NCBI GenBank assembly: GCA_033344895.1
Contig: JAWPMN010000001.1
Coordinates: forward strand, 3,170,001 to 3,234,000
Direction: 5' to 3'
Length of the DNA: 64,000 bases
Source of the DNA: Alphaproteobacteria bacterium
Lineage (GTDB): Bacteria > Pseudomonadota > Alphaproteobacteria > UBA8366 > Aestuariispiraceae
Part shown: positions 1,845 through 50,327 of the stretch, piece by piece
Layout of the letters: each line of letters begins with the position of its first letter
Numbering within the stretch: the first letter of the stretch is position 1
Made by a program: the position numbers and the translations under genes
The notes under the pieces: generated by a model
What the model was told of the DNA's origin: nothing
Seen by the model: only the letters and a program-made list of their open reading frames with translations
Databases searched by the model: none

Positions 1845-2393
1845 ATGCTTCAGGGGCTCGCCACGATGCCGAACGGTCTGTCCATCCGCCCGGCGCGGCC
1901 CGCGGACAAGCCGTTTCTCGAGAAACTTCATCGCGATCAACGCGAGGACTTGAAGATGGTCGATGCGGACCGGGCCTATATCGAGGAACTGCTGGACATG
2001 CAGTTGCGGGCCCAGACATCCGGCTACGGCGGCGCCTTTCCCAATGCCCTTTACTTTGTGATCGAGAAAACCGGGGATCTGATCGGGAAGTTGACACTGG
2101 ACTGGGGCGGGACGGAAGCGCGGGTCATCGACCTGGGGTTCGTCAAGAAGGCGCGCGGCAAAGGCTTTGGTCAGTCCGTCATCATGGCGCTGCTGGCAGC
2201 CTGCGGCCCATCCAAGTGCCCGCTTGCGGTCTCTGTCGCGATCAACAATCCTCCGCTCTACCAGTGGCTTCTGGCCCATGGTTTCGTCGTCGCCGACGCG
2301 CCGGACGGCGGGTCACATCACATGTTGATCTGGTATCCGGGCGGTGACGCAATGGCTGGCCAGCCCGGCGCCATGACGCAGGCGTCTAAATAG
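1845..2393 (+). CDS. GNAT family N-acetyltransferase
   Basis: A 182-residue protein. Residues ~9-150 match the GNAT layout: an N-terminal 'IRPARPADKPFLEKL' strand-helix, a central acidic sheet, and the acetyl-CoA loop in 'DLGFVKKARGKGFGQSVI' (R/Q-x-x-G-x-G/A variant). The C-terminal tail is proline/glycine rich. An AAGGGA element lies about 8 bases before the ATG used here; a second ATG seven codons later is possible. The acyl acceptor is unknown. It stands alone between the M16 pair and the convergent tail-collar cluster. Confidence 0.75.
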   Translation: MLQGLATMPNGLSIRPARPADKPFLEKLHRDQREDLKMVDADRAYIEELLDMQLRAQTSGYGGAFPNALYFVIEKTGDLIGKLTLDWGGTEARVIDLGFVKKARGKGFGQSVIMALLAACGPSKCPLAVSVAINNPPLYQWLLAHGFVVADAPDGGSHHMLIWYPGGDAMAGQPGAMTQASK

Positions 2394-2417: not shown

Positions 2418-2753
2418 TCAGCCGAAAACGACCGACCAGCGTTGCCCGTCGCCCCATTCCGGCGCCGGGACGCCGCAATTCGGTGTGATCGTCACATTTT
2501 TCAGAATGCCGAAGCCCTCGTTTTCCAGGGTCACGCAGATCGATTCGCCCGATGGCGGCACAAGATCGGTCATGAAAATCGCCGAGAAGGACGGGCGCTC
2601 CCTCAGCCCGAGAATGGGTTCGCCCGAAACCCGGACATGGACCAGACGTGCCTGAATCTCGCCGCCTTCATTGTAGACCCGAAAGGTTTCGCCGATATGC
2701 GCTTCGAAGGTCTCCGGTACCACCGCGCCCATTTCCAGTTCTCTGTCAGTCAT
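2418..2753 (-). CDS. DUF6916-like protein, distal copy of the tail-collar cluster
   Basis: A 111-residue protein of mixed beta character. It shares the layout of the protein at 4266-4661: 'ETFEAHIGETFRV', a beta strand pair, 'GLRERPSFSAIF', and a C-terminal strand ending in WSVVFG. Small proteins of this kind accompany MdpB-like tail-collar proteins in many bacteria. I assign it to that family by architecture and neighbourhood, not by a search. It is the last gene of a four-gene minus-strand set (DUF6916-like, collar, collar, DUF6916-like). Function is unknown; a structural or assembly partner of the collar proteins is plausible. Confidence 0.6.
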   Translation of the reverse strand: MTDRELEMGAVVPETFEAHIGETFRVYNEGGEIQARLVHVRVSGEPILGLRERPSFSAIFMTDLVPPSGESICVTLENEGFGILKNVTITPNCGVPAPEWGDGQRWSVVFG

Positions 2754-2876
2754 CTCATTCTCGCAAAGTCATTTGGGGCATCGCCATGATGGTGGCCGCC
2801 GGGATAGGATAGTCGGGCGTATCGGAAAGTTCGGTTCCACCATTGCCCGGACTAGAAGCCTCAGAATAACCGTCGC

Positions 2877-3497
2877 TCAATTGCGCGACGGGTAGATGCC
2901 ATTCTCGCAAATGCAATAGTTCACGGCCTGAAGCGGGTTCACGATTTGAAAATCCAGGTTGCTGCCCGTTTTTTCCAAAGCGACGGTGCCTGTCACGTTG
3001 CTGATGGAGGCTGAGACCCCGCCAAGCGGAACGGAACCAGTCACTTCATTATTGGCGACATACATGTCCGGGAAGGTTCCCAGAGCGGGCTGGCCGCCGA
3101 CATAGTCGCCGTCCGCAGGGACGCGTTTCGTGGCCGGATCGATGGACGCATCCACTGTTACGGAGATCGTGGAGCCAGTTGCCTCGAATGTAGCGGGATG
3201 TGTGTGGACCGCAATATGTGCCGTCGACAATTCTTGGGTCTGAATGCCGTAGCGCGTGCCGAGCGGAAATGAAGTTAGTCCCGCAGCAGCGCCCATCATG
3301 TTTGAGCCCACCGGCACCCGTGCCCGCAAATCGGGATAACCGAAAGTGGCCCGTCCGTCGCCACCAAAATATGACCCGATCAGCGAATACAGAGCCTGAT
3401 TCTGGCTTATGGATACAGTCTGGCCACTGCAGAACGCCCAGTTCACAGGCGCAAAGTTAAATCCGAACGATGCGATCATTCCGTAGAATGCATCCAT
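2877..3497 (-). CDS. phage tail collar domain protein (MdpB-like), second copy
   Basis: A 206-residue protein opening with 'MDAFYGMIASFGFNFAPVNW' and 'FCSGQ..SISQNQALYSLIG..FGGDGRATFGYPDLRAR', the signature of the phage tail collar domain (residues ~8-60). The middle (about 85-150) is a diverged beta-rich part. The C-terminus reads NPLQAVNYCICENGIYPSRN, closely matching the paralogue at 3566-4186. Homologues are called microcystin-dependent protein in cyanobacteria and occur outside prophages, where their role is unclear. No phage genes are nearby. A weak ribosome site (GGGGGAGTG) precedes the ATG. Confidence 0.82.
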   Translation of the reverse strand: MDAFYGMIASFGFNFAPVNWAFCSGQTVSISQNQALYSLIGSYFGGDGRATFGYPDLRARVPVGSNMMGAAAGLTSFPLGTRYGIQTQELSTAHIAVHTHPATFEATGSTISVTVDASIDPATKRVPADGDYVGGQPALGTFPDMYVANNEVTGSVPLGGVSASISNVTGTVALEKTGSNLDFQIVNPLQAVNYCICENGIYPSRN

Positions 3498-3565
3498 TGT
3501 ATCACTCCCCCTTCAATCTGGCTTGCGCGCCCCGGCGTTATGGTCCGCCGGCCTTGGATCGGCTG

Positions 3566-4186
3566 TCAGTTCCGAGACGGATAGAGGCCGTCCTCGCAGA
3601 TGCAGAAATTGACGGCCTGCAAGGGATTGACGATCTCAAAAGGGGTCCCGTTGCCCGTGTTGCCGACGCTCACCTCCCCCGCCAGTCCTAAAGATGCGGA
3701 TACTCCGCCGAGGGAAACCGAGGCGCCAACTGCGTTGCCGTCGACATACATATCCGGGAAAGTGCCCAATTGTGGCTGGCTGGCGAGATAATCACCCGTG
3801 TCCGGGGCACGCTTCGTCGCCGCATCGGTTGATGCCTTGACGGCCATGTTCATGGTGCTGCTGGTAGGCGTGAAGACCGCCACATGATCGTGACTGGGCA
3901 GGTTGTTCACATTGAGCCTCTGTATCTGAGACCCATACAACTCGCCCAACGGATAGGAAAAAGTTAGGCCCAGCGGGGGGCCCATGGAGGCAGAGCCGAC
4001 GGCCATGCGGGCCCTCAGATCTGGGTATTTGAAATCTGTTCGACCGTTGCCGCCATAAAAGGTGCTGATCAGCGAATAGAGCGTCGGATTCTGTGAAATC
4101 GCCACTGACTGGCCGCTGCAGAACGCCCAATCGCGTGGGGCAAAGGTAAACCCGAAAGTGGCGATCATGCCGCAAAACGCTTCCAT
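3566..4186 (-). CDS. phage tail collar domain protein (MdpB-like), first copy
   Basis: A 206-residue paralogue of the protein at 2877-3497 with exactly the same length. It has the collar motif 'FCSGQSVAISQNPTLYSLIS' and 'GGNGRTDFKYPDLRARM', a 'LPSHDHV' histidine segment typical of collar proteins, and the same C-terminal end (QAVNFCICEDGLYPSRN). The two copies differ most in the central ~80 residues, suggesting duplication followed by divergence of a binding surface. A GGGGGAGTAAG element lies just upstream of the ATG. Likely a secreted or surface-exposed trimeric structural protein; the ligand is not known. Confidence 0.83.
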   Translation of the reverse strand: MEAFCGMIATFGFTFAPRDWAFCSGQSVAISQNPTLYSLISTFYGGNGRTDFKYPDLRARMAVGSASMGPPLGLTFSYPLGELYGSQIQRLNVNNLPSHDHVAVFTPTSSTMNMAVKASTDAATKRAPDTGDYLASQPQLGTFPDMYVDGNAVGASVSLGGVSASLGLAGEVSVGNTGNGTPFEIVNPLQAVNFCICEDGLYPSRN

Positions 4187-4265
4187 TTTCTTACTCCCCC
4201 GGTTCCAACTTGCGTGTGTATGAGTGATATGCCCGACGCGCGACCAAGTACCGTGCCCGCCGGAA

Positions 4266-4661
4266 TCAGGAAAATACCGCTGTCAGAAAGGCGGCCTTTC
4301 CGTCCTTGCCGACATCGCGGCTCAGTGAGATGCCGGATATCTGACCCAGTTCCGCGTGCCGGAGGTCATAGGCACCATCGTGTAGCGCGAGGTTGTCCGG
4401 CGCGGAGAAGACCACGCAAAAGCGGTGACGTGTCAGCAGAGTGTCGCTGTCCGGCTTGTCCGGACAGTCAATCGTCCCTTGGTCGTGGCACTCGATCAGT
4501 TCCAGTTCGACCAGAACCTCGTCGGATTGGGCGCCGTCGTCGCTCTTGCCCGCAGATTCGGTTCTACTCGCGGAAAGGGTAGTCTCGAACTTGCTGCCGA
4601 TGTGGGATTTGAACAACTCCAGGGTGGCATCCCGCAGTTCCAACCGTTTCGTGCTCGCCAT
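4266..4661 (-). CDS. DUF6916-like protein, lead gene of the tail-collar cluster
   Basis: A 131-residue protein. The frame stays open upstream to 4763, but the ATG at 4661 has a strong GGAGGAGT ribosome site, so I start there. It begins 'MASTKRLELRDATLELFKSHIGSKFE', then a variable linker, and closes with 'TRHRFCVVFSAPDNLALHDGAYDLRHAELG...FLTAVFS'. This matches the small beta-rich DUF6916 family found beside MdpB-type collar proteins. It is the first gene of the minus-strand set and shares architecture with the last one (2418-2753). Function unknown. Confidence 0.7.
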   Translation of the reverse strand: MASTKRLELRDATLELFKSHIGSKFETTLSASRTESAGKSDDGAQSDEVLVELELIECHDQGTIDCPDKPDSDTLLTRHRFCVVFSAPDNLALHDGAYDLRHAELGQISGISLSRDVGKDGKAAFLTAVFS

Positions 4662-5176
4662 ATCGGACTCCTCCCGATGTTGCTGTTTCCGCCTGACCGG
4701 TCCGGACGGAACCGATCGGGCCGGCGTTCTTGCCACCGAGTCCGAGCGGACGCCCATGCCCAATCATTGGAGAAGACCGCCTGCCCCTATCGGGCGTGGT
4801 GGATGCCTTGAAGACGATCCTAGTTTTGATTCCATCATTTTTATCCTTTTGCGAGCATAGCAGGCTGATTCCCGGATCGACCATAAATTTTTATTAAAAT
4901 TTTAGCACAGCCTTAAACAGTGCTTCTTGTTCAGATGTTTAGGGCGAATTGGTGATCGCCACACATCGCTAAGCGCTGAAATTCAACGAATTTTGCGTCG
5001 ATATAAAGAGAACGTATTATATTTATCTAAAATACATTGTATAGTCGAATGATCCTCGATATGGTTCTTTCCGCATGGAAGCGGCTGCGTTAACCTGAGG
5101 TGAGATTTCGGCAATCGGTTGTAGTTTCCGGCGCCCGTGTATCTCGAAACAGGCAAAATCGTTTAGAGGGTGGGTT
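4662..5176. other. AT-rich intergenic region before the giant adhesin
   Basis: About 515 bases with no convincing gene. The stretch at ~4880-5060 is far more AT-rich than its surroundings (runs such as AAATTTTTATTAAAATTTT) and includes a candidate promoter at 4993-5020. It separates the divergent tail-collar set and the adhesin operon and probably holds promoters for both. Small readable frames here (for instance 4441-4860, plus) overlap the start of the DUF6916-like gene and show no recognisable protein. Confidence 0.5.
4993..5020 (+). promoter_or_regulatory. candidate sigma70-type promoter for the adhesin operon
   Basis: TTGCGT at 4993-4998 and TATTAT at 5015-5020 are separated by 16 bases inside the AT-rich segment, about 155 bases upstream of the adhesin start. 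The match to TTGACA/TATAAT is partial, so this is a suggestion only. The long leader leaves room for further control. Confidence 0.3.
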
Positions 5177-8100
5177 GTGCGACGTCTCCGAAGATTTCTG
5201 ATGAACTCACCCGTCCGTTCCGCGTCGGAGGCGACCGCTACGGCTGCGATGCCATTGGCGCTTGAGCCCCGTTTCATGTTTGACGCCGCGGGCGCCGCGA
5301 CCGGCGCGGATGCCGCCCAGGATGCTGTTGCGGAAGCGGAAGCTGCCAACCAGGGGGCGTCGGATGGTGCGGTAGGGGACGATGCTGCCGCGATTGCCGA
5401 TGCAATCGAAGGTCATGTGCCGTCCGACGGGCGAAAGGAAGTCGTCATCGTCGATCCTTCCGTCGCCTCCTATCAGGATTTGCTGTCGGGCATGGATCCG
5501 AATGTCGAGATCATCATCCTGAATGAGGGGGCGACGGTTTCGGATGTGGCGTCGGCCCTTGACGGACGAAATGGGATCGATGCTGTCCACCTGATCAGCC
5601 ATGGCGGTGTCGGCTCCCTCAATCTGGGCGGGGAGACATTGTCTCTCGATACGCTGGAGGCGAATGCCGACGCATTGCGCACCATCGGCGCTGCGCTTTC
5701 CGTGGACGGCGACCTGCTGCTTTATGGCTGCAATGTCGGTGCGGATGGGGGCGGCGAGGCGTTCCTGACCGCACTCGCCAGTGCGACCGGCGCGGATGTT
5801 GCCGCATCGTCCGATGCAACAGGGGCCGCGGCGCTCGGCGGTGATTGGGTGCTTGAAGCGGCGGTCGGTGACATCGAAAGCGGGATTGCGGTTTCCGCTG
5901 AAGGGCAGGCGGCGTTCTCGTCGGTGCTGGCGACGATGGATTTTTCGTCCGGTGTGACAGATAACGGAAACACAGTGGATGTGCTGGTTTCCGGTGTCAC
6001 CGCGACCTTTTCCCACTCGGGCGTGAATATCGACGTTGCCAATGGCGGCGGCCTTGCCGGATCGTCCGGCGAAGTCGTCTTCAGCAATGCCAGCAACACC
6101 AACCCGTTCACTGTTTCGTTCAGTAGCGCAGTCGACATCACGTCATTGCATCTCGGGCGCTTGTCCGGTCAGAACTCCGAAGTAACCATCAGTGTAACGG
6201 ATGGCAGCGGGAACACGTCTGTCGTGGTTTCCGGTGCCAATTACTCCAGCGGCTCGGTCGTGTCCCTGAACTGGACGGGTGTGACGTCCTTTACCATCGA
6301 TCACACCGATGCCGGACATGCGATTTCCCCGCTGGTGGACAACATCATCTTCAGCGCCGCGAACGCCGCGCCGTCGCTTGGGGGGACGCCGGCGGATGTG
6401 ACGGTGACCGAAGACGTTGCGACGGCAATCGATCTGTCCGCCTACAATGTCTCCGACAGTGACGGCGATACGATTACGCTGACTCTTGCGGTCAGCGCCG
6501 GGACGATCGCGTCCGTCGACGGAAACGGTACGACTTCGGGGGTGACGGTCGCCAGTTCGGGAAGCGGTTCCATGACCTTGCAGGGCACCGCCGCCAATCT
6601 GAACACCTATCTGAACGATACCAGCAAGATCCGCTATACGACCGCATCGAACAGCACGGCTTCCGCGACCCTGACCGTGACGCCGAATGACGGGACAACC
6701 GACGGTACCGCGGACACGGTCACGATCAATGTTACATCGGTTAACGACAATCCGGGCGCGACGGGTGTGCCGGCTTCGGTGACCGTGACCGAGGACACGT
6801 TGAGCAATGTCGATCTGTCGGCGATCACTTTCTCCGATGTCGACAGCGCCTCGATCACCGTCACGCTGACGGCATCCGCCGGTACCTTCGCAACGCCGGC
6901 CGATGGTGCGGGCGTCGGCGGTGGCGTGACCGAGACCCTGGTGAGTGCGACCACGATCACGCTGGTCGGCTCTCCCGCGGATATCAGCACCTATCTGGAT
7001 TCGCCTAGCAGCATCCAATACACGCCGGCGTCGAATGTCAGTGGCAATGCGGCGGCGACCATCACCGTCACTGCCAATGATGGCGACGGCTCAGGCAATG
7101 TCGCACTGGGCACGGTCAATGTGAACGTGACCGCCGTAAACGACAATCCGACGATTGCGGGCCTCCCGGCCTCTGTCACTGTGACGGAGGACACGCAGGG
7201 CAATGTTGATCTGTCCGCCGCGACTTTCGCCGATATCGACAGCGCCTCGATCACCGTCACACTGACGGCATCCGCCGGCACCTTCGCGACGCCGGCCGAT
7301 GGTGCGGGCGTCGGGGGCGGCGTGACCGAAACCCTGGTGAACGCGACCACGATCACGCTGGTCGGCGCCCCTGCGGATATCAGCACCTATCTGGATACGG
7401 CAAGCAACATCCAGTATACGCCGGCGTCGAATGTCAGCGGCAATGCGGCGGCGACCATCACCGTCACCGCCAATGACGGCGACGGCTCGGGGAATGTCGC
7501 GCTGGGCACGGTCAATGTGAACGTGACCGCCGTAAACGACAATCCGACCGGCTCCGTGCCCGCCACGGTAACGGTTACGGAAGACACGCTGAGCAATGTC
7601 GATCTGTCCGCGGCCAGTTTTGCCGATGTCGACGGCGACACGATCACCGTCACCCTGACGGCCTCGGCCGGGACCTTCGCGACCCCGGCGGACGGGGCAG
7701 GTGTGGGCGGCGGGGTCACGGAGACCCTGGTGAATGCGACGACGATCACGCTGGTCGGCGCTGCGGCGGACATCAACACCTATCTCGATACCGCTTCCAA
7801 CATCCGCTATACTTCGGCGTCCAATGCCAGTGGGAACAGTGCGGCGACCATCACGGTCACGGTGAATGACGGTCAGGGCAGCGGCAATGTCTCGGCCGGC
7901 ACGGTGCAGGTCAATGTCACCGCCGTGAACGACGCCCCGGCATTCAGCGGTCTGGACGGCACCCCTGCCTTTACGGAAGGCGGCTCGGCGGTGGTTCTGG
8001 ACAGCAATGTCACCCTGACCGATGTCGAACTCGTCGCGCTGAATGGCGGCAATGGCAATTTTGCCGGGGCAAGCCTGGTGATCGTGCGAAATGGCGGAGC

Positions 8101-11100
8101 GAATGCGGCCGACGCCTTTTCCATTGTCACTGGCGGGAATCTGAGCGTCGCTGGCAGCGACATCTCGTCGGGCGGCAATGTCATCGCCAGTTTCGATACA
8201 TCGTCCGCCGGCCAAGTGACGATCACCTTCCAAAATAACGGTACGATCCCGACAACCGCGCTGGTCAACGAGGTGATGCAGGCGGTTCGCTATTCCAACA
8301 CCGCGAACGATCCGGCCGCCTCGGTACAGCTGAACTGGACATTCTCCGACGGCAATAGCGGCAACAGCCAGGGAACCGGCGACAATCCGGGAACGGCCAG
8401 CGGGTCGACAACGGTTTCGATCACCAATGTCAACGACGCGCCGACCCTGACCGCAACCGGGAGCAATCCGACCTTTACTGAAGACGGCGGCGCCCAGGAT
8501 CTGTTCAACACCGTCACGGGATCTACGATCGAAGCCGCAGACAGAATCAGCGCCATGACGATGACGGTCACCAATGTCTCGGACGGGGCGAGCGAGATTC
8601 TTGCCTTCGATGGTACGGACGTGGCGCTGACCAACGGGAATTCAGTCGTAACAGCGACAAACGGCCTGACCGTCAATGTGTCCGTGACCGGCAGTACGGC
8701 AACGGTCAGCTTCACCGGCGCGACCTTGAGTTCGGCGCAGTTCCAGACGCTGGTTGACAGCCTGACCTATCGGAATGCGTCCGACAATCCGACAACCAGC
8801 GGGAACCGGGTCGTTACCATTACCGGCATCACGGATAATGGCGGTACGGCGAATGGCGGCAGCAATTCGGCGGCACCCAATGTGCAGAGTACGGTTTCGC
8901 TGACGGCCGTGAATGACGCCCCTGTCATCGGTAATCTGGCAGGCGACAGCACGGCGCTGCAGGTCGGCAATGTCGCGAATATCGACAATGGCGGCAATGT
9001 CACGGTCACCAATGCGGATTCCACCAATTACAATGGCGGATCACTGATCATTTCGGATACCAACGCCAACAATACCGCGAATGGAAATTTCTCGGTCGAC
9101 GGTACCAATGTCACATCCGGCGGCGATACTACGATTTCGGCGGGTGAAACGATCTTGGTGGGCGGGGTGAACATCGGAACGGTTCACGCCACAAATGATG
9201 GACAGAGCGGCCGGACGCTTCAGATAGATTTCAATGTCAATGCCACAAACGAACGTGTGCAGGCTCTGATACAGAATCTCCGCTGGGGTGCGGCGGCGGG
9301 CAGCGGCGCCCAGACCTTCACGGCAACGCTGAACGATGCGGACGGTACCGCGAATGGGGGCGATCAGGATACGACCGCCAATTTCACGATGACGGTGGGC
9401 AACTTGCCCGCGATCGCCAATCTCAACGGCGACAGCGTGACTTTCACCGAAGGCGGCGGCGCCGCGGTGATCGACAGCGGCGGCGACGCCACCGTGACCG
9501 ATGCCGACAATCCAGCCAATTTCGGGGGCGGGAATCTTACGGTTACCGTCTCCGCCAACGCGGTCGCCGCGGAGGATATCCTGACCTTGAACACCGCCGG
9601 TACTGTTGCGCTGGCCGGTACCACGGCGGGGTCGAATGTCTCGGTCGGCGGAACCGTGATCGGTACCCTGGCAAACAGCATTGCGGCCGGGAACAACCTG
9701 GTCGTCAATCTCAACAGCTTTGCGACATTGGCGCGGGTTCAGACGCTGGTACAGGCTATTGCCTACAACAATGCCAGCGACGCGCCAACCACCACCACCC
9801 GAACCGTGTCGGTGACTTTGACCGACAATGACGGGCTGACGAGCGCAACCAGTTCCACGTCGGTTTCGATCTCCGCCGTCAACGACGCTCCAGTCTTTAC
9901 CGGGCTTGATGGAACGCCGACGGTCAACGAGCAGACGGCGGTGGTGCTGGATTCCAATGCCACGGTCGCCGATGCGGAATTGGACGCCCTGAATGGCGGC
10001 GCCGGCAACTACAGCGGTGCGACACTGACATTGTCGCGCAATGGCGGAGCCAATGCGGAGGATGCGTTCTCAAATTCCGGGACACTGGGGGCGCTGACCC
10101 AGGGCGGTAACCTGACGGTCGGGGGCACGACGATCGGCACGGTGACGACGAATTCCGGCGGGACCCTGCTGCTGACCTTCAACAGCAGTGCCACGCGGGC
10201 ACTGGTCAATAGCGCGATCCAGCAGATCACCTACACCAATACCAGTGACACGCCGCCCGCGAATGCGCAGATCAACTATGTGTTCAACGACGGGAACAGC
10301 GGCTCCCAGGGCAGCGGCGGTGCCGGATCGGACAGCGATAACTCGGTGACTGTGACGATCACGCCGGTCAATGATGCACCGACCGCGACCGGCATTCCGG
10401 CGTCGGTCACCGTAACGGAGGATGTTCTCAGCAATATCGACCTATCCGCTGTCAGTTTCGCAGATCTGGACGGCAACAATCTGACGGTGACGCTGACGGC
10501 TTCGGCCGGCACATTCGCAACGCCCGCGGACGGTGCTGCTGTCGGTGCCGGTGTTACGGAAACCCTGGTCAATGCGACGACCATAACGTTGGCCGGCAGC
10601 GCGGCGGACATTGCAACCTATCTCGATACGGCAACCAATATCCGTTACACGACGGCGGCGAATGCAGCAGGCAACAATGTCGCGACGATAAGCGTCGCGG
10701 CGAATGACGGTACGGTCAATCCGACCTTGGGTACGATCCAGGTGAATTCGACGGCGGTGAACGATGCGCCGTCGGCAACGGGGGGTCCGGCCGCGGTCAC
10801 AGTGACCGAAGACACACTCAGCAATGTGGACCTGTCGGCTATCACGTTCTCCGATGTCGACGGCGACAGTCTGACGGTGACGCTAACGGCTTCGGCCGGC
10901 ACTTTCGCGACGCCCGCGGACGGGGCGGGTGTCGGTGCCGGTGTTACGGAAACCCTGGTCAATGCAACGACCATGACGCTGGTCGGCAGTGCTGCGGATA
11001 TCAGCACCTATCTCGATACTGCGACCAACATTCGCTACACGACGGCATCGAACGCGGCGGGCAATGCGGTGGCGACAATCACCATCACCGCCAGTGACGG

Positions 11101-12367
11101 CACGGTGACGCCGACCATCGGAACCGTGAACGTCAATTCGACGGCCGTGAACGATGCGCCTCAGATCGTCGGTGCAAACAATACCGTCGTCTTCAATCCG
11201 TCCGGCGGCACGCCGGTCGTGCTCGATGGTGATATGACGGTGACCGATCCCGAACTGGCGGCGGCCGGCGATTTTGACGGCCTCTCGGTCACGATTGTCC
11301 GGTCGGGGGGCGCGGATGCGAACGACCTCTTCAACGTCAAGAGCAGTGCAAATGTCACCAAGGTCGGCAACAATCTTCAGGCAGGCGGCAATACGATCGC
11401 GACCCTGAACACGACAACGGCCGGCCAGTTGGTCATCACCTTCGACAGCGGCAATGGAACGACCGCGACGGCCGCGCTGGTGAATGAGGTCGTGCAGAAC
11501 GTGACCTATGCCACGAATGCGGTGGCTCCCACATCCCCGGTCACAATCAATATTACAGCGAATGACGGGGCGCTGGCCGGTACGACGCAGACTTTGACGG
11601 CATCCCTGGCGCCGCCACCGCCGGCAGACGATTTCGTGCCGCCGCCAGCGCCTACACCCCCGCCCGGCCCGCCGCCCACGGCGCAGCTGCCGCTGACCCC
11701 GCCGCCGCAGCCACCGGCCGATACACCCGTCCGAGATGCTGGAAATGGTGGGCTGAACCCAAATGGGCCGGCCCAGAATGACGGCCGCGTCGGCAGTGCC
11801 GTGACCGGTGGGCTTGGTGCACGGAGTGCTATCGAAAATACCGGAACGCCTGTCCGCGTTTCGGTCATGGGGGCCGGAAACGGATTGGTCCAGAATTCCG
11901 GCGCCGGACAGCCGGCCGGGGGCACAGGCGGGGCCGTAGGCAGCTTCAGCAGCGCCGGCGGTAGTGGCAACGTTGGAGGCGGTGCCGCCGGTGGTCTGGG
12001 AAGTGGTGGTCTGGGAAGTAACGGTCTGGGAGGTAATGGCCTGGGCGGTGGTACTGAGGGTGGAGGCTTCGGGTCCGGCATCAACGGGCTCCAGGATGAG
12101 ACTGATTCCAACGCGCCGCCTTCGAACAGCCCGGGTGAAGGCGAAGGAAGCGGTGAGCAGGCCGATGCCGGGCCCGACGATCGGGATGCCGCATCCGAGA
12201 CGCGGATTGCCCAGTCCAGGGAAGCGGCACAGAGTGACGAAGGCGTTCCGGTCGGGGCGCTGGTCGAACCGGGCTTCCTTGGCGAATTGCTGCAAGCCGC
12301 CGGGAAGGGGCAGACGCTGGACGAAATTGTAACAGCGTTGGATGAATATCTGCCGCCGGCCGCATAG
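5177..12367 (+). CDS. giant LEPR/DUF4347 cadherin-repeat surface protein
   Basis: A 2396-residue protein. GTG start chosen for the GAGGGTGGG site just upstream; an ATG eight codons later is possible. N-terminus: short basic stretch and no Sec-type hydrophobic core, then the LEPR motif (L29-R32, ALEPRFMFDAAGAA). Residues ~88-253 form a DUF4347-like domain with H142 in ISHGG and C185 in YGCN, a His/Cys pair as in caspase-like clan CD folds. Residues ~395-2140 are cadherin/VCBS-like beta-sandwich repeats (recurring VTVTEDTLSNVDLS, ASAGTFATPADG, VNDAP). Then come a proline-rich segment (~2145-2190), a glycine-rich segment (~2190-2300) and an acidic tail. I see no RTX nonapeptides. It likely acts as a secreted or surface adhesin; the genes that follow look like its export apparatus. 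Confidence 0.88.
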   Translation: MRRLRRFLMNSPVRSASEATATAAMPLALEPRFMFDAAGAATGADAAQDAVAEAEAANQGASDGAVGDDAAAIADAIEGHVPSDGRKEVVIVDPSVASYQDLLSGMDPNVEIIILNEGATVSDVASALDGRNGIDAVHLISHGGVGSLNLGGETLSLDTLEANADALRTIGAALSVDGDLLLYGCNVGADGGGEAFLTALASATGADVAASSDATGAAALGGDWVLEAAVGDIESGIAVSAEGQAAFSSVLATMDFSSGVTDNGNTVDVLVSGVTATFSHSGVNIDVANGGGLAGSSGEVVFSNASNTNPFTVSFSSAVDITSLHLGRLSGQNSEVTISVTDGSGNTSVVVSGANYSSGSVVSLNWTGVTSFTIDHTDAGHAISPLVDNIIFSAANAAPSLGGTPADVTVTEDVATAIDLSAYNVSDSDGDTITLTLAVSAGTIASVDGNGTTSGVTVASSGSGSMTLQGTAANLNTYLNDTSKIRYTTASNSTASATLTVTPNDGTTDGTADTVTINVTSVNDNPGATGVPASVTVTEDTLSNVDLSAITFSDVDSASITVTLTASAGTFATPADGAGVGGGVTETLVSATTITLVGSPADISTYLDSPSSIQYTPASNVSGNAAATITVTANDGDGSGNVALGTVNVNVTAVNDNPTIAGLPASVTVTEDTQGNVDLSAATFADIDSASITVTLTASAGTFATPADGAGVGGGVTETLVNATTITLVGAPADISTYLDTASNIQYTPASNVSGNAAATITVTANDGDGSGNVALGTVNVNVTAVNDNPTGSVPATVTVTEDTLSNVDLSAASFADVDGDTITVTLTASAGTFATPADGAGVGGGVTETLVNATTITLVGAAADINTYLDTASNIRYTSASNASGNSAATITVTVNDGQGSGNVSAGTVQVNVTAVNDAPAFSGLDGTPAFTEGGSAVVLDSNVTLTDVELVALNGGNGNFAGASLVIVRNGGANAADAFSIVTGGNLSVAGSDISSGGNVIASFDTSSAGQVTITFQNNGTIPTTALVNEVMQAVRYSNTANDPAASVQLNWTFSDGNSGNSQGTGDNPGTASGSTTVSITNVNDAPTLTATGSNPTFTEDGGAQDLFNTVTGSTIEAADRISAMTMTVTNVSDGASEILAFDGTDVALTNGNSVVTATNGLTVNVSVTGSTATVSFTGATLSSAQFQTLVDSLTYRNASDNPTTSGNRVVTITGITDNGGTANGGSNSAAPNVQSTVSLTAVNDAPVIGNLAGDSTALQVGNVANIDNGGNVTVTNADSTNYNGGSLIISDTNANNTANGNFSVDGTNVTSGGDTTISAGETILVGGVNIGTVHATNDGQSGRTLQIDFNVNATNERVQALIQNLRWGAAAGSGAQTFTATLNDADGTANGGDQDTTANFTMTVGNLPAIANLNGDSVTFTEGGGAAVIDSGGDATVTDADNPANFGGGNLTVTVSANAVAAEDILTLNTAGTVALAGTTAGSNVSVGGTVIGTLANSIAAGNNLVVNLNSFATLARVQTLVQAIAYNNASDAPTTTTRTVSVTLTDNDGLTSATSSTSVSISAVNDAPVFTGLDGTPTVNEQTAVVLDSNATVADAELDALNGGAGNYSGATLTLSRNGGANAEDAFSNSGTLGALTQGGNLTVGGTTIGTVTTNSGGTLLLTFNSSATRALVNSAIQQITYTNTSDTPPANAQINYVFNDGNSGSQGSGGAGSDSDNSVTVTITPVNDAPTATGIPASVTVTEDVLSNIDLSAVSFADLDGNNLTVTLTASAGTFATPADGAAVGAGVTETLVNATTITLAGSAADIATYLDTATNIRYTTAANAAGNNVATISVAANDGTVNPTLGTIQVNSTAVNDAPSATGGPAAVTVTEDTLSNVDLSAITFSDVDGDSLTVTLTASAGTFATPADGAGVGAGVTETLVNATTMTLVGSAADISTYLDTATNIRYTTASNAAGNAVATITITASDGTVTPTIGTVNVNSTAVNDAPQIVGANNTVVFNPSGGTPVVLDGDMTVTDPELAAAGDFDGLSVTIVRSGGADANDLFNVKSSANVTKVGNNLQAGGNTIATLNTTTAGQLVITFDSGNGTTATAALVNEVVQNVTYATNAVAPTSPVTINITANDGALAGTTQTLTASLAPPPPADDFVPPPAPTPPPGPPPTAQLPLTPPPQPPADTPVRDAGNGGLNPNGPAQNDGRVGSAVTGGLGARSAIENTGTPVRVSVMGAGNGLVQNSGAGQPAGGTGGAVGSFSSAGGSGNVGGGAAGGLGSGGLGSNGLGGNGLGGGTEGGGFGSGINGLQDETDSNAPPSNSPGEGEGSGEQADAGPDDRDAASETRIAQSREAAQSDEGVPVGALVEPGFLGELLQAAGKGQTLDEIVTALDEYLPPAA
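6757..7935 (+). repeat. three tandem cadherin-like repeats (about 390 bases each)
   Basis: Units at roughly 6757-7146, 7147-7542 and 7543-7935 each encode a ~130-residue domain beginning near VTVTEDT and ending VNVTAVNDN. The first two are nearly identical at DNA level over most of their length, which indicates recent duplication or gene conversion. A more diverged unit precedes them at ~6360-6750. Confidence 0.85.
10375..11157 (+). repeat. second tandem pair of the same cadherin-like repeat
   Basis: Units at roughly 10375-10760 and 10761-11157 repeat the VTVTED...ASAGTFATPADGA...TETLVNATT module found at 6757-7935, about 2.4 kb downstream of it. Longer and different beta domains lie between (7936-10374). 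Re-use of the same module in two blocks suggests internal recombination. Confidence 0.8.
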
Positions 12368-16215: not shown

Positions 16216-18360
16216 ATGGCAATCGCCGACTCCGCAGGGCTAGCGGCGGGCGACACCGACGACCGGTTGCCGCCGCTTCGCGATGACCTGAAACTGCTGC
16301 CTGCAGCGCCGGACAGGTCGGGACAGCCTGCCTGGACGATCTTCGATCCGGTACGCAACCGATACTTCAGAATTGGGCCGGAAGCTTTCGAGTGCCTGAT
16401 CCGCTGGTCCGTCGGAAGTGTCGGCCGGCTTGTGGAAATGGTCCGGACACAATCGGTCTATGCCCCGGACGAGGGGGCGGTGTCAAAACTGATCGCCTTC
16501 CTGCAAAGCAATGCATTGCTGGTGCGGGCGGATTCTGATGTCGCCGCATCCTTCGGTCGAATTGCCGAGGCCGGACAGCAGGCCTGGTACAAGCGTGCGG
16601 TTCACAACTATCTGTTTTTTCGGATCCCGCTGGTTCGGCCGACCCAATTCCTGCGGGCGACCCAGCCCATCGCGGATTTCGTCGCCTGTTCGGCCGTCCG
16701 GTACACAATTCTGGCGTTGGGTGTGCTGGGGCTGTTCCTTGTCAGCCGTCAGTGGGATGCCTTCGTGACGACCTTCCTGGGATATCTGAACTGGCAGGGC
16801 GCGGTTGCGATCGCCCTGACACTCACCCTGACGAAGATCCTTCACGAATTGGGGCATGCCTACGCAACGACCCGCTATGGCGGTCGCGTGCCGACCATGG
16901 GACTGGCCTTTCTGGTGCTCTATCCAGTGCTCTATACCGATACATCGGATGCCTGGCGCATGACGTCGCGCAGGGCCCGTCTGGCGATTGGGACGGCAGG
17001 AATTCGGGTTGAACTGGCAATTGCGCTGCTGGCGACCTTTCTCTGGTCCTTTCTGCCGGACGGCCCGGTCCGAAGCGCTGTCTTCCTGTTGGCGAGCGCG
17101 ACCTGGATTTCCACGCTGCTGATCAACCTCAGTCCGTTTCTGCGGTTCGACGGGTACTACATTCTGTCGGACTGGCTCGACATTCCCAATCTTCAGCCCC
17201 GGGCCTTTGCGCTGACGCGATGGTGGCTGCGCGAGGTGCTGTTCGGGTTCGGGCTTCCGATGCCGGAGCCCTTTGCACGGTCGACACGCCGATTGCTGAT
17301 TGCCTACAGCATCGGTACCTGGATTTATCGCTTCTTCCTGTTTCTGGGGATCGCGCTGCTGGTCTATCACCTGTTCTTCAAGGTTATCGGGATCGTCCTT
17401 TTCGTAATCGAGATCGTGTATTTTATCCTGCTGCCGATCATTAAGGAGATCCGGGCGTGGGGACAGTTGCGATCCCATGCCAGACCGACCGTGAACATCG
17501 TGGTTTCCCTTTCGGTTCTGGGCTTCCTGATCTGGCTTTTCGTCACGCCATGGCAGACGGAAGTGGCGGCGCCGGCATTGGTTGAATCCCGTGTCAGCTC
17601 CGAAGTGCTGAATGCCATTCCGGCCCGTGTTCGATCGATTGAGATCAGGGAAGGGCAGGCGGTAACTGCCGGTCAGCCGCTTGTCCTTCTGGAATCGCCG
17701 ATGCTGCTTTCGGCGCTGTCCGCCAATGCCGCACGTCAGAAGGCCGTTACTCTGCAACTGGGTCGCGCCCGTACGACCGACGAGGGCCGTGGTGACGTTG
17801 CACGCCTTGAAGAGGAACTGCGCGGCCTGCAATCGTCGCGATCCCGGATTGAGGCCCGCATGTCCCGTCTAACGGTCTCTGCCCCCGGGGATGGGGTGTT
17901 CCGCGACCTCCCTGCAGGGCTCATGCCGGGACAATGGATTGCGGGCGGGACCTTGCTGGGGCGGGTCGTGTCCTCCGATGCCCGGATGCTGGCTTATGCC
18001 GATCAGGCCGATCTGCCGCGCCTTCGCGAAGGTGCCGAGGTTCGGTTCATTCCGGAGGATCCTTCTCGTGCATCGATTGGCGGTACGGTCCGGCGGATTG
18101 ACGGGCTGGGCGCGGAGAGACTGTCCAGCGCGCATTTTTCGGCGTCCTTCGGGGGCGGAGTCGCAGCGCGGCAGCAGGCGCAGGACCGGGAATGGGTTCC
18201 GCTCAACGCCGTTTATCGGATCGAGATTGCCCTGAATGAGGCCCTGACCCTTGATCGTCCACTGCGCGGAACCGCGCAGATCGAGGCACCGCCGCAGAGC
18301 CTGGTGACGCGGGTCTGGCGGTCCGTCGGGGCCGTGCTGGTGCGGGAGTCCGGTTTCTAG
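16216..18360 (+). CDS. M50 (site-2) membrane metalloprotease fused to a HlyD-like adaptor
   Basis: A 714-residue inner-membrane protein. Residues ~30-105 resemble a PqqD-like winged helix (TIFDPVRNRYFRIGPEAFE). Several membrane helices follow; zinc residues HELGH at 210-214 and a second motif NLSPFLRFDGYY with D312 identify a peptidase M50 of the 'putative peptide zinc metalloprotease' type. After a last helix (~430-445) the C-terminal ~260 residues are HlyD-like: a half lipoyl domain (IPARVRSIEIREGQAVTAGQPL), a coiled coil (~505-555) and a barrel. It closes the adhesin operon. I infer that it takes the inner-membrane place of an ABC exporter and may cut or gate the adhesin; neither is shown. 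Confidence 0.85.
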   Translation: MAIADSAGLAAGDTDDRLPPLRDDLKLLPAAPDRSGQPAWTIFDPVRNRYFRIGPEAFECLIRWSVGSVGRLVEMVRTQSVYAPDEGAVSKLIAFLQSNALLVRADSDVAASFGRIAEAGQQAWYKRAVHNYLFFRIPLVRPTQFLRATQPIADFVACSAVRYTILALGVLGLFLVSRQWDAFVTTFLGYLNWQGAVAIALTLTLTKILHELGHAYATTRYGGRVPTMGLAFLVLYPVLYTDTSDAWRMTSRRARLAIGTAGIRVELAIALLATFLWSFLPDGPVRSAVFLLASATWISTLLINLSPFLRFDGYYILSDWLDIPNLQPRAFALTRWWLREVLFGFGLPMPEPFARSTRRLLIAYSIGTWIYRFFLFLGIALLVYHLFFKVIGIVLFVIEIVYFILLPIIKEIRAWGQLRSHARPTVNIVVSLSVLGFLIWLFVTPWQTEVAAPALVESRVSSEVLNAIPARVRSIEIREGQAVTAGQPLVLLESPMLLSALSANAARQKAVTLQLGRARTTDEGRGDVARLEEELRGLQSSRSRIEARMSRLTVSAPGDGVFRDLPAGLMPGQWIAGGTLLGRVVSSDARMLAYADQADLPRLREGAEVRFIPEDPSRASIGGTVRRIDGLGAERLSSAHFSASFGGGVAARQQAQDREWVPLNAVYRIEIALNEALTLDRPLRGTAQIEAPPQSLVTRVWRSVGAVLVRESGF

Positions 18361-47317: not shown

Positions 47318-49318
47318 TCAGGAACGGTATCGCACCAATATGGCATTTCCGTCACCTTCCAGATGTGGCGTCTGGGCCGGTCTTCCAAGTATCCCGGCGG
47401 CACGGCGTACCTTGTCCGAGACCCAGGCCGACAGTTCACCCAGGGTCAGGACGTCGTCGCCGTCCGCATTCGCTTCACCTTCGAGCCCGCGCATCAGGAA
47501 ATAGCTGAACAGACCGTGGCGTCGCTGAGGCAAGGTGCCCGCCGTCTGCCGCCCGCTTGCCGCCGACAGGACCGCAACCCCCGCCGGCACGGTCGGCGAG
47601 GGGACGGAGAAGACCGGGCGGGAGGCGACCAGCATGTCGTCGGCGCGCCCGGGGCCGGAAAAACAGGTGTCCAGAACGACGGTCGCGGACCGGGCATTCA
47701 GGGCGGCGAGTTCCTCGATCAGGTCACCGCGCTGTATCGCCAGAAACTGCAGCAGCTCGGCATCACCATCATAGGGAAGCAGGTAGGCACCGGTCGCATC
47801 GCCATCGGTCAGGCCATGTCCGGCGAAGAAGACGTAGACATCGGACTTTCCGGTCTCCACCAGACTGGGCAGCCAGAGCGAGAGCGCCTTGCGGATCGAC
47901 CCGAAGCCGGCCTCTTCGCCGACCAGCGTCTTGATCCGCGTCGGCGGGACGCCCAGCACATATTGGGCATAATCGGCAAACGCCTTGGCATCGCGGTCGG
48001 CATAGGTTGCATCCGGCAGGGATCGATAGGTCTCCGTTCCGATGATCAGGGCGACGGCGTCCGGATTGGTGCGGGTCGGCGTTCGGATCGGGTTCAGTGG
48101 AATCAGATCCACGGCCAGGGCGGCAAGGTCGTCGATCTCTTCCCGCTCTCTGCGAAGCGTCACCGTCTTCGACAGGGTGATACCGTCCTCGCCTTGGGCG
48201 GTGACGGTTACGACCCGTTCCCCATCGATCACATAGACTCCGTGACTGAAGCGGCCATCCTGCCCGACCGGGACGGCCTCCCCGTCGATCGTGACCGTGT
48301 CTCCGGCCCCCGATACCTGCCCCTGGACCTTGAGAAACGGCGTCTTACCCGTGACGGTCTCTGCCACGGTGAGTGAAAACTCGGGGGCCGGGGGGAGGGC
48401 GGCGACGTCCTGCGCCACGGCATCCAGCAGGTCGGGCGTCGCATTGCCGGTAACCGGCAGGCCCCTGGCGCTTTCATAGGCGCGCAGGGCCCGCCGTGTC
48501 GCAGGGCCCATGATGCCGTCGACGGGCCCGGGATCGTAGCCGAGCCGCCCGAGGTTCCTCTGCAGCGTCCGGATCTCCGCCACGGTCACGGGCGGCGGGC
48601 CGATTGCGGTCGGTTGTGCGATCGGGGAATCCGCCGGTGGCGGCGCGGCCTTCGACTGCGGCCGGGTCCAGGACGTGCCGCCGGGCCAGCCGGGATAGAG
48701 TGTCCCGTTCGAGGAACGGGCAACCATCCGGTCCAGGATGTCGACCTCATGCCGGGGGAGCCGCGCAGCCAGCTCTCGCCGGTTCGTCGCCGCATGGTCC
48801 GCACCGCCGATCCTGTCGGCGATGGCATAGTGGAAATAGGCGGCACGGCGATCGTTTTCGATCCCGCGTCCCTTTTCCAGAATGATTCCCAGATTGTTAT
48901 GGGCCGGGGCGAATCCGTTGCGCGCGGCCTTGCGGTAGAGTTCGCGCGCCCGGCTGATATCGCGTGGCACGCCCAGACCGTCATCATACATGACGGCCAG
49001 ATCGTAGATCGCTTCCGTCCGACCCTGTTCGGCGGCCCGTTCGTACCAGTAGACGGCTTCCTGATAACTCTGATGAACGCCCCAGCCGCGTTTGAACAGA
49101 TAGGCCAGACTGTTCTGGGCCTGGGCATTGCCCGCGACCGCGAGGCGCGACCAAATTCTGGCCGCGCGCACATAGTCGCCCGTCTGGAAGGCGTTGTAAC
49201 CCCGATCATAGGGTGTTTGCGCCGTCGACGATGGCGGATCTGCCGTCAGGCAAAGCACCGCGACCAGCAGGGCCGTAAGAACAGTCCGGATACTCGGTCC
49301 GGGGCCGGATAGCGTCAT
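47318..49318 (-). CDS. secreted Sel1-repeat / peptidoglycan-binding / caspase-like protein
   Basis: A 666-residue exported protein: signal peptide (LTALLVAVLCLTADPPSSTAQ), Sel1 repeats at ~35-165 (WSRLAVAGNAQAQNSLAYLFKRG; AAEQGRTEAIYDLAVMYDDG), a peptidoglycan-binding domain near 240-300 ('IRTLQRNLGRLGYDPGPVDG'), a beta domain, then a peptidase C14 caspase domain with H501 (FFAGHG) and C552 (DTCFSG). Probably a periplasmic orthocaspase. It lies inside an operon with CoA-ester genes. Confidence 0.88.
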   Translation of the reverse strand: MTLSGPGPSIRTVLTALLVAVLCLTADPPSSTAQTPYDRGYNAFQTGDYVRAARIWSRLAVAGNAQAQNSLAYLFKRGWGVHQSYQEAVYWYERAAEQGRTEAIYDLAVMYDDGLGVPRDISRARELYRKAARNGFAPAHNNLGIILEKGRGIENDRRAAYFHYAIADRIGGADHAATNRRELAARLPRHEVDILDRMVARSSNGTLYPGWPGGTSWTRPQSKAAPPPADSPIAQPTAIGPPPVTVAEIRTLQRNLGRLGYDPGPVDGIMGPATRRALRAYESARGLPVTGNATPDLLDAVAQDVAALPPAPEFSLTVAETVTGKTPFLKVQGQVSGAGDTVTIDGEAVPVGQDGRFSHGVYVIDGERVVTVTAQGEDGITLSKTVTLRREREEIDDLAALAVDLIPLNPIRTPTRTNPDAVALIIGTETYRSLPDATYADRDAKAFADYAQYVLGVPPTRIKTLVGEEAGFGSIRKALSLWLPSLVETGKSDVYVFFAGHGLTDGDATGAYLLPYDGDAELLQFLAIQRGDLIEELAALNARSATVVLDTCFSGPGRADDMLVASRPVFSVPSPTVPAGVAVLSAASGRQTAGTLPQRRHGLFSYFLMRGLEGEANADGDDVLTLGELSAWVSDKVRRAAGILGRPAQTPHLEGDGNAILVRYRS

Positions 49319-49433
49319 CGAAAATCTCCCACCGGTTCCGGGATGGCGCCGGAGGTGGTCCGGTTCGCCAAGACTAGCCAGTTCCGAATGGGTATGGAAG
49401 CGCCGGGCCGAATTTTCCCGATACCGGCGCGAC

Positions 49434-50327
49434 TTAGGCGGCCGCGTTCTGATCCGCCGCCAATTCTTCGATCCGTTCCGCCAGGGCCAGAATCCGCTTT
49501 GCATTCTCGACATGCAGGTTCTCGACCAGCTTCCCGTCCAGGACGACGACGCCCCGGCCTTCGGCCTGTGCGGCTTCGAACGCCGTTATGATTTCCCTGC
49601 TGCGCGCGACTTCCTGCTCGCTGGGGCCAAACACGTCATTGGCCATGCCGATCGTCTTGGGGTGGATCAACGTCTTGCCGTCAAAGCCCAGTTCCAGCCC
49701 CTGACGGCAGCTTTCCGCGAAACCGTCGTCATCGGCCAGGTCCAGATGGACACCGTCCAGTGCCGCCAGCCCATAGGCGCGGGCCACCAGGATGGTATGG
49801 TTGAGGCTGGTCATGAAGGGCAGGCGCGTCGGTGTATGCAGGCAATGCAGTTCCTTCGCCAGATCGGAGGTTCCCATGACGAAACCTGTAACGCGTGGGG
49901 AGGCCGCGGCGATTTCCTCCGCGTGGAGTACGCCCATCGGCGTTTCGATCATGCACCAGATCGCAAGATCCGACGGACCGCCCGCGGCGTCCAGAACGGC
50001 GATGGCCTTCCGGACGCTGTCCGCGCTTTCGACCTTGGGCAGCAATATGCCGTCAGCCCCCGCCACTGCCAGGGCGGACAGGTCGTCCCGGCCCCAGGGG
50101 GTCTCCAGTCCATTCACACGAACCAGGATTTCCCGTTTGCCGTACCCGCCTTCGCCGAGCGCGTCGGCAATGTTGGACCGCGCCTCCGCCTTTGCGTCCG
50201 GCGCCACGGCGTCTTCCAGATCCAGAATCAGCGCGTCTGCCGCCAGGCTGCGGCCTTTCTGCAGGGCGCGCGGGTTCGACCCGGGCATGTAGAGAACCGA
50301 ACGGCGGGGGCGGGCGTCAGCAACCAT
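49434..50327 (-). CDS. CitE-family (3S)-malyl-CoA thioesterase-like protein
   Basis: A 297-residue HpcH/HpaI aldolase/CitE-fold protein: 'RSVLYMPGSNPRALQK', 'DALILDLEDAVAPDAK', 'FVMGTSDLAKEL' and 'VVVLDGKLVENLHVENAKRIL' follow (3S)-malyl-CoA thioesterase (Mcl2). The ATG at 50327 with GAGG is used. Beside a mesaconyl-CoA hydratase-like gene this suggests malyl/methylmalyl-CoA metabolism. A lyase cannot be excluded. Confidence 0.78.
   Translation of the reverse strand: MVADARPRRSVLYMPGSNPRALQKGRSLAADALILDLEDAVAPDAKAEARSNIADALGEGGYGKREILVRVNGLETPWGRDDLSALAVAGADGILLPKVESADSVRKAIAVLDAAGGPSDLAIWCMIETPMGVLHAEEIAAASPRVTGFVMGTSDLAKELHCLHTPTRLPFMTSLNHTILVARAYGLAALDGVHLDLADDDGFAESCRQGLELGFDGKTLIHPKTIGMANDVFGPSEQEVARSREIITAFEAAQAEGRGVVVLDGKLVENLHVENAKRILALAERIEELAADQNAAA

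Follow-up and report, generated by a model that had tools for sequence, protein, structure and literature searches.

In the window, that is, the whole 64,000-nt stretch of alphaproteobacterial DNA analysed here, a run of five plus-strand genes encodes a giant repeat protein, a TolC-family channel, a short HlyD adaptor, a GAF-HlyD adaptor and, in last place, a fusion of an M50 protease with a HlyD-like membrane-fusion protein (MFP), designated M50-HlyD (Table 1). The gene after M50-HlyD encodes an unrelated aminomethyltransferase-type protein. Phage-tail-collar, DUF6916 and GNAT genes lie next to the giant; among the loci examined, collar genes were near the operon in 11, GNAT genes in 5 and DUF6916 genes in 3. 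Elsewhere in the window, a minus-strand gene (47318-49513) encodes a Sel1-repeat, peptidoglycan-binding protein, in which C-terminal caspase-like FAGHG and DTCFSG motifs were recognised by eye.

Table 1. Features of the M50-HlyD locus, in window coordinates.
Feature	Position	Strand	Evidence or remark
GNAT gene	1845..2393	+	next to giant
Two DUF6916 genes	2418..2753, 4266..4763	-	next to giant
Two phage-tail-collar-domain genes	2877..3497, 3566..4186	-	next to giant
Giant cadherin-like/tandem-repeat protein, 2396 aa, presumed cargo	5177..12367	+	DUF4347 3.2e-51, Cadherin_4, tandem-95 repeats
LEPR tag LEPRFMFDA, giant residues 29-37	5261..5287	+	NF012209 15.0 bits (cut-off 17); conserved across loci
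DUF4347 domain, giant residues 89-251	5441..5929	+	Pfam PF14252
C-terminal FLGEL motif of giant	12275..12289	+	[FL]xx[QE][LIVF] pattern
TolC-family outer membrane channel, 508 aa	12482..14008	+	OEP 8.4e-30; recurrent in operon
Short periplasmic adaptor (HlyD/RND_mfp type), 255 aa	14005..14772	+	HlyD_3 73.3 bits; recurrent in operon
GAF-HlyD adaptor, 459 aa	14833..16212	+	HlyD_3 52.3 bits, weak GAF; adjacent to M50-HlyD at almost every locus examined
M50-HlyD (RRE-M50-HlyD fusion), 714 aa	16216..18360	+	intact frame; HlyD_3, M50, daptide_HExxH profiles
PqqD/RRE-like N-terminal domain, about residues 19-110	16270..16545	+	PqqD significant in aligned sister subfamily
HELGH zinc motif, residues 210-214	16843..16857	+	H210, E211 and H214 unchanged in 81/81 relatives
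D312, candidate for the third zinc ligand, N-P-RFDG motif	17149..17151	+	invariant in 81/81 relatives
MFP (HlyD-like) region, about residues 445-640	17548..18135	+	Pfam HlyD_3; profile match to solved MFPs; weak structural support

The M50-HlyD gene is one intact frame, with its ATG at 16216, a stop ending at 18360 and no internal stop. The first-pass annotation had read it as a single chain with a PqqD-like start, an M50 protease and a C-terminal HlyD-like half, and the single chain is real: full-length relatives exist at 77, 54 and 43% identity within the same order, and dozens more beyond these, so that a frameshift or misassembly joining two genes is ruled out. The HlyD-like half was borne out by Pfam HlyD_3, which matches residues 553-635 with 37.1 bits (cut-off 22.2), and by a profile of 38 relatives that matches solved MFPs (MacA/MexA at 1.8e-14, ZneB, EmrA and HlyD) over about residues 443-644. 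AlphaFold gave low confidence both for the whole fusion modelled from its single sequence (pLDDT 42.5) and for the C-terminal half modelled from two sequences (pLDDT 48.4, to be read for topology only). With the latter model, the top Foldseek matches were MFPs at weak TM-scores of 0.15-0.24.

For the protease half, the proposed active-site residues of HELGH, including E211, and D312 (which lies in NLSPFLRFDGYY) were all found in place. The NCBIfam profile daptide_HExxH (NF041824), which describes a family of RRE plus site-2 protease (S2P), spans residues 45-406 (1.9e-48), with a score of 165.5 bits that falls below the equivalog cut-off of 300. Peptidase_M50 (PF02163) matches residues 199-297 just under its gathering cut-off (26.1 vs 27.2 bits), and all 38 group A relatives match it at E<=0.1. 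The profile of 38 relatives also matches the S2P structure 3b4r over residues 195-223 (E 0.0012). Eight residues (H210, E211, H214, N304, P307, D312, Y314 and D319) are unchanged in all 81 relatives from two subfamilies, and this constancy of the catalytic residues led us to reject a dead protease. The PqqD-like start was upheld at family level only: Pfam PqqD does not match the 714-aa protein itself, but does match 7 of 12 members of a sister subfamily (one with 28.5 bits against a cut-off of 23.4), which aligns with the fusion from residue 19 through to the end.

We take it as confirmed, on sequence grounds, that this gene joins a membrane-embedded protease, with predicted proteolytic activity, to a periplasmic export adaptor. 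The earlier suggestion that the protease is thereby made part of the periplasmic conduit survives in part. The protease is indeed tethered to an MFP. Its active site, however, belongs to the half that is embedded in the membrane, which would place the protease at the foot of the conduit in the inner membrane and not inside the periplasmic tube. A positive-inside estimate of the topology was not decisive. From these features we infer both that protease and MFP assemble with TolC and that proteolysis occurs.

A genome search detected the fusion in 25 of 387 alphaproteobacterial genomes, and relatives in 71 of 299 sampled Pseudomonadota genomes; because at most two or three candidates were scored per genome, copy numbers are lower bounds. 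Eighty plasmid records match the fusion, 56 of them over at least 80% of the query, and the plasmid hosts include Azospirillum, Burkholderia, Cupriavidus, Variovorax, Kosakonia, Citrobacter and E. coli. Among 5426 E. coli genomes, 24 carry the version of that species; a complete operon with a 4459-aa giant tagged LESRQLFDG is found on E. coli plasmids and, in a few cases, on the chromosome. Viral contigs yielded no relatives. One record titled Mesoflavibacter sp. MAG (CP051228.1) encodes a 77% identical fusion, and its Bacteroidota name looks wrong. Public names of the relatives are generic, namely HlyD family (efflux) adaptor, site-2 protease family or biotin/lipoyl-binding protein.

The order TolC, HlyD, GAF-HlyD, M50-HlyD is repeated in alpha-, beta- and gammaproteobacteria, with the giant placed either upstream or just after M50-HlyD. 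As an exception, TolC instead of GAF-HlyD stands beside M50-HlyD at locus L159. A LEPR giant was not seen beside the operon in four loci (L013, where the upstream protein looks truncated, L015, L054 and L055). At L015 (11725-15978), from Phyllobacterium, an HrpK-domain protein without the LEPR tag, possibly a different cargo, precedes GAF-HlyD and M50-HlyD, and no TolC match was found nearby. At locus L067 (genome G295, 2769-11012), M50-HlyD, TolC and possibly more are split into several frames, which may reflect decay of the whole unit or sequence errors.

The giants of these loci have in common an N-terminal motif, LExRx[ML][FL]D[AG]A, of which we collected 33 distinct instances. Three of six giant N-termini tested passed the 17-bit cut-off of the NCBIfam LEPR-XLL domain (NF012209), and the tag of group A (...FDA), a variant form, has scores close to this cut-off; by these profile scores, the tag is the LEPR-XLL domain or a close variant of it. 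LEPR-XLL proteins are common in Planctomycetota. No clear Sec-like or transmembrane-length hydrophobic stretch was found near the tag in the giants. At the other end, [FL]xx[QE][LIVF] occurs in 23 of 24 group A giants compared with 7% per 60 aa elsewhere, the pattern having been defined partly post hoc; it was rejected as a general signal, since group B giants do not have it. Of 40 partial DUF4347 sequences, inspected for a possible His/Cys caspase-like domain, 19 contain an SHG motif and 31 a Cys motif.

We compared the distribution of the tag with that of M50-HlyD. In the 299 Pseudomonadota genomes, LEPR-XLL was matched at E<=1e-3 in 35 genomes of 16 families, and all 35 encode M50-HlyD (p=4e-26, phylogeny ignored); the nine weaker matches outside M50-HlyD genomes are in frames of 64-1014 aa. 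The linkage holds even for LEPR giants located elsewhere in the genome. DUF4347 was found in 20 of 25 M50-HlyD genomes vs 14 of 362 others among the 387 alphaproteobacterial genomes (p=4e-20, phylogeny ignored). The LExR motif was seen in DUF4347 giants of M50-HlyD genomes; where the fusion is missing from the genome, all 20 sampled DUF4347 proteins lacked it. Moreover, the eighth residue of the tag is D in 14 of 16 sampled group A genomes vs none of eight group-B-only genomes, where it is mostly S (p=6e-5, phylogeny ignored; one group B row, L188, was left out because a spurious stretch had been matched). Such tracking of protease subfamily (A or B) by tag type (D or S) is expected if the machine reads the tag. 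These results suggest that the protease reads or removes the tag during export.

By profile comparison, the nearest characterised relative of the fusion is the daptide protein MpaP, an RRE fused to S2P in which leader removal is RRE-dependent (PMC10036551). In both, an RRE/PqqD-like domain, which for the fusion is predicted from the sister subfamily, is placed N-terminal to S2P, and the presumed cargo has a conserved N-terminal leader motif. Unlike MpaP, the fusion has an MFP half, its cargo would be a giant and not a small peptide, its operon has no daptide-modifying genes, and its score is well short of the family cut-off given above. The epipeptide proteases YydH, LiaK and EpeP (NF058609) are likewise M50 leader proteases, and EpeP is thought to both cut and export EpeX (PMC10885120); however, they have no MFP half, and the fusion scores 35.6 bits against their cut-off of 225, over the protease core only. 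Type 1 secretion and tripartite efflux systems such as HlyBD-TolC and MacAB-TolC resemble the present system in the combination of MFP and TolC and in handling very large repeat proteins that show no Sec-like signal. Type 1 secretion is recognised by an ABC transporter encoded with the MFP, whereas the operon in the window contains no ABC, RND or MFS transporter gene; the inner-membrane partner would be the protease, and the tag is N-terminal. C39-peptidase ABC exporters (PCAT/AMS) also couple leader cutting to export in one polypeptide. That likeness is one of analogy. The zinc M50 protease and the cysteine C39 protease are unrelated, and PCAT/AMS are powered by an ABC ATPase. LEPR-XLL domain proteins are likewise very large repeat proteins that bear the tag N-terminally, and several of the giants collected here score above the NF012209 cut-off. 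The Moraxella mcb locus was rejected as the same system, since the mcb paper describes an ABC system. In the open-access literature searched, we found no paper linking the LEPR-XLL domain to an export or processing machine, and no description of the M50/HlyD/PqqD fusion, its operon or its link to LEPR giants. The individual domains are thus known, whereas their combination, the operon and the giant link appear undescribed in that literature.

We propose that LEPR-tagged giants are exported and matured by a dedicated, leader-reading TolC machine with M50-HlyD as its core in the inner membrane, a proposal to which we give an even chance of being right. The RRE/PqqD-like start would recognise the N-terminal LExRxxxD tag of the giant, and the S2P core would cut the tag or leader at the membrane. 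The MFP half of the fusion, together with GAF-HlyD and the short HlyD adaptor, would link to the dedicated TolC channel, and cutting would be coupled to entry into the conduit. The kinship with RRE-S2P leader proteases, the MFP half and the dedicated TolC suggest, by analogy, that reading, cutting and hand-over are combined in one protein. Arguments for such a machine are the invariant catalytic residues, the PqqD-like start in the family, the conserved operon, the linkage of LEPR-XLL to M50-HlyD, the match of tag subtypes, the lack of a clear Sec-like stretch by the tag and the M50-HlyD genomes that have no type 1 HlyD. Counting against tag cutting, the usual substrates of S2P enzymes are transmembrane segments, to which the tag region does not belong. 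The four type 1 ABC/HlyD pairs that this genome has elsewhere, and the loci at which no LEPR giant adjoins the operon, weigh against the machine as well. More specifically, an intramembrane zinc protease-adaptor, not an ABC transporter, may receive and cut the LEPR giants and pass them to TolC; we put this Gram-negative secretion pathway, which would be a new one, forward tentatively, as a plausible route that we stop short of favouring.

Alternatively, the giant could be exported by a conventional type 1 ABC transporter encoded elsewhere, with M50-HlyD and the adaptors only processing it or holding it at the surface. The genome of the window does have four ordinary type 1 ABC/HlyD pairs elsewhere, and 35 of 42 M50-HlyD genomes have a type 1 HlyD. 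The remaining 7 have none at the threshold used, suggesting that a canonical type 1 system is no general need, with room left for other ABC proteins. Further, the operon brings its own TolC and three adaptors, and a scan for ABC ATPase motifs, which had hits in the vicinity of two loci in the first set but of no locus among the next 20, revealed no recurrent ABC gene. We therefore consider export in trans unlikely, though of real weight.

S2P proteases classically act in signalling by regulated intramembrane proteolysis. Together with the weak GAF-like domain of the adjacent adaptor, this would fit a protease that serves signalling or self-processing, for example release of its own MFP half, and does not act on the tag. 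The matching subtypes of tag and protease speak against this, as do the closest profiles, which are those of RiPP leader proteases, and across the annotated loci the operon shows no recurrent gene for an anti-sigma factor or a regulator; such a role seems to us quite unlikely. The same daptide and epipeptide profiles could instead point to maturation and export of a small unannotated peptide (a RiPP), the giant being a mere neighbour. Yet the annotated loci contain no RiPP-modifying enzyme, and the linkage is to LEPR giants, including those encoded elsewhere in the genome, so we regard a peptide substrate as improbable. Finally, the public annotation as a HlyD-family efflux adaptor would suit an ordinary adaptor whose protease domain is inert, or else a fusion that is an artefact. 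The catalytic residues are invariant while the HlyD half varies, and the fusion is conserved over a phylum, which leaves this reading scarcely credible.

The proposed export and maturation machine would supply a partner for the LEPR-XLL tag, which is curated but has lacked an explanation, and a testable route for the many giant repeat proteins whose way out of the cell is obscure; at present, generic annotation of these genes as efflux adaptors hides the system. If export uses no ABC ATPase, the question arises of what powers the export of a giant. If the proposal is true, the idea of an RRE-S2P leader protease would no longer be confined to small RiPPs but would also cover proteins thousands of residues long, and the pathway, which would occur in roughly a quarter of the sampled Pseudomonadota genomes, would account for the function of the LEPR-XLL domain.
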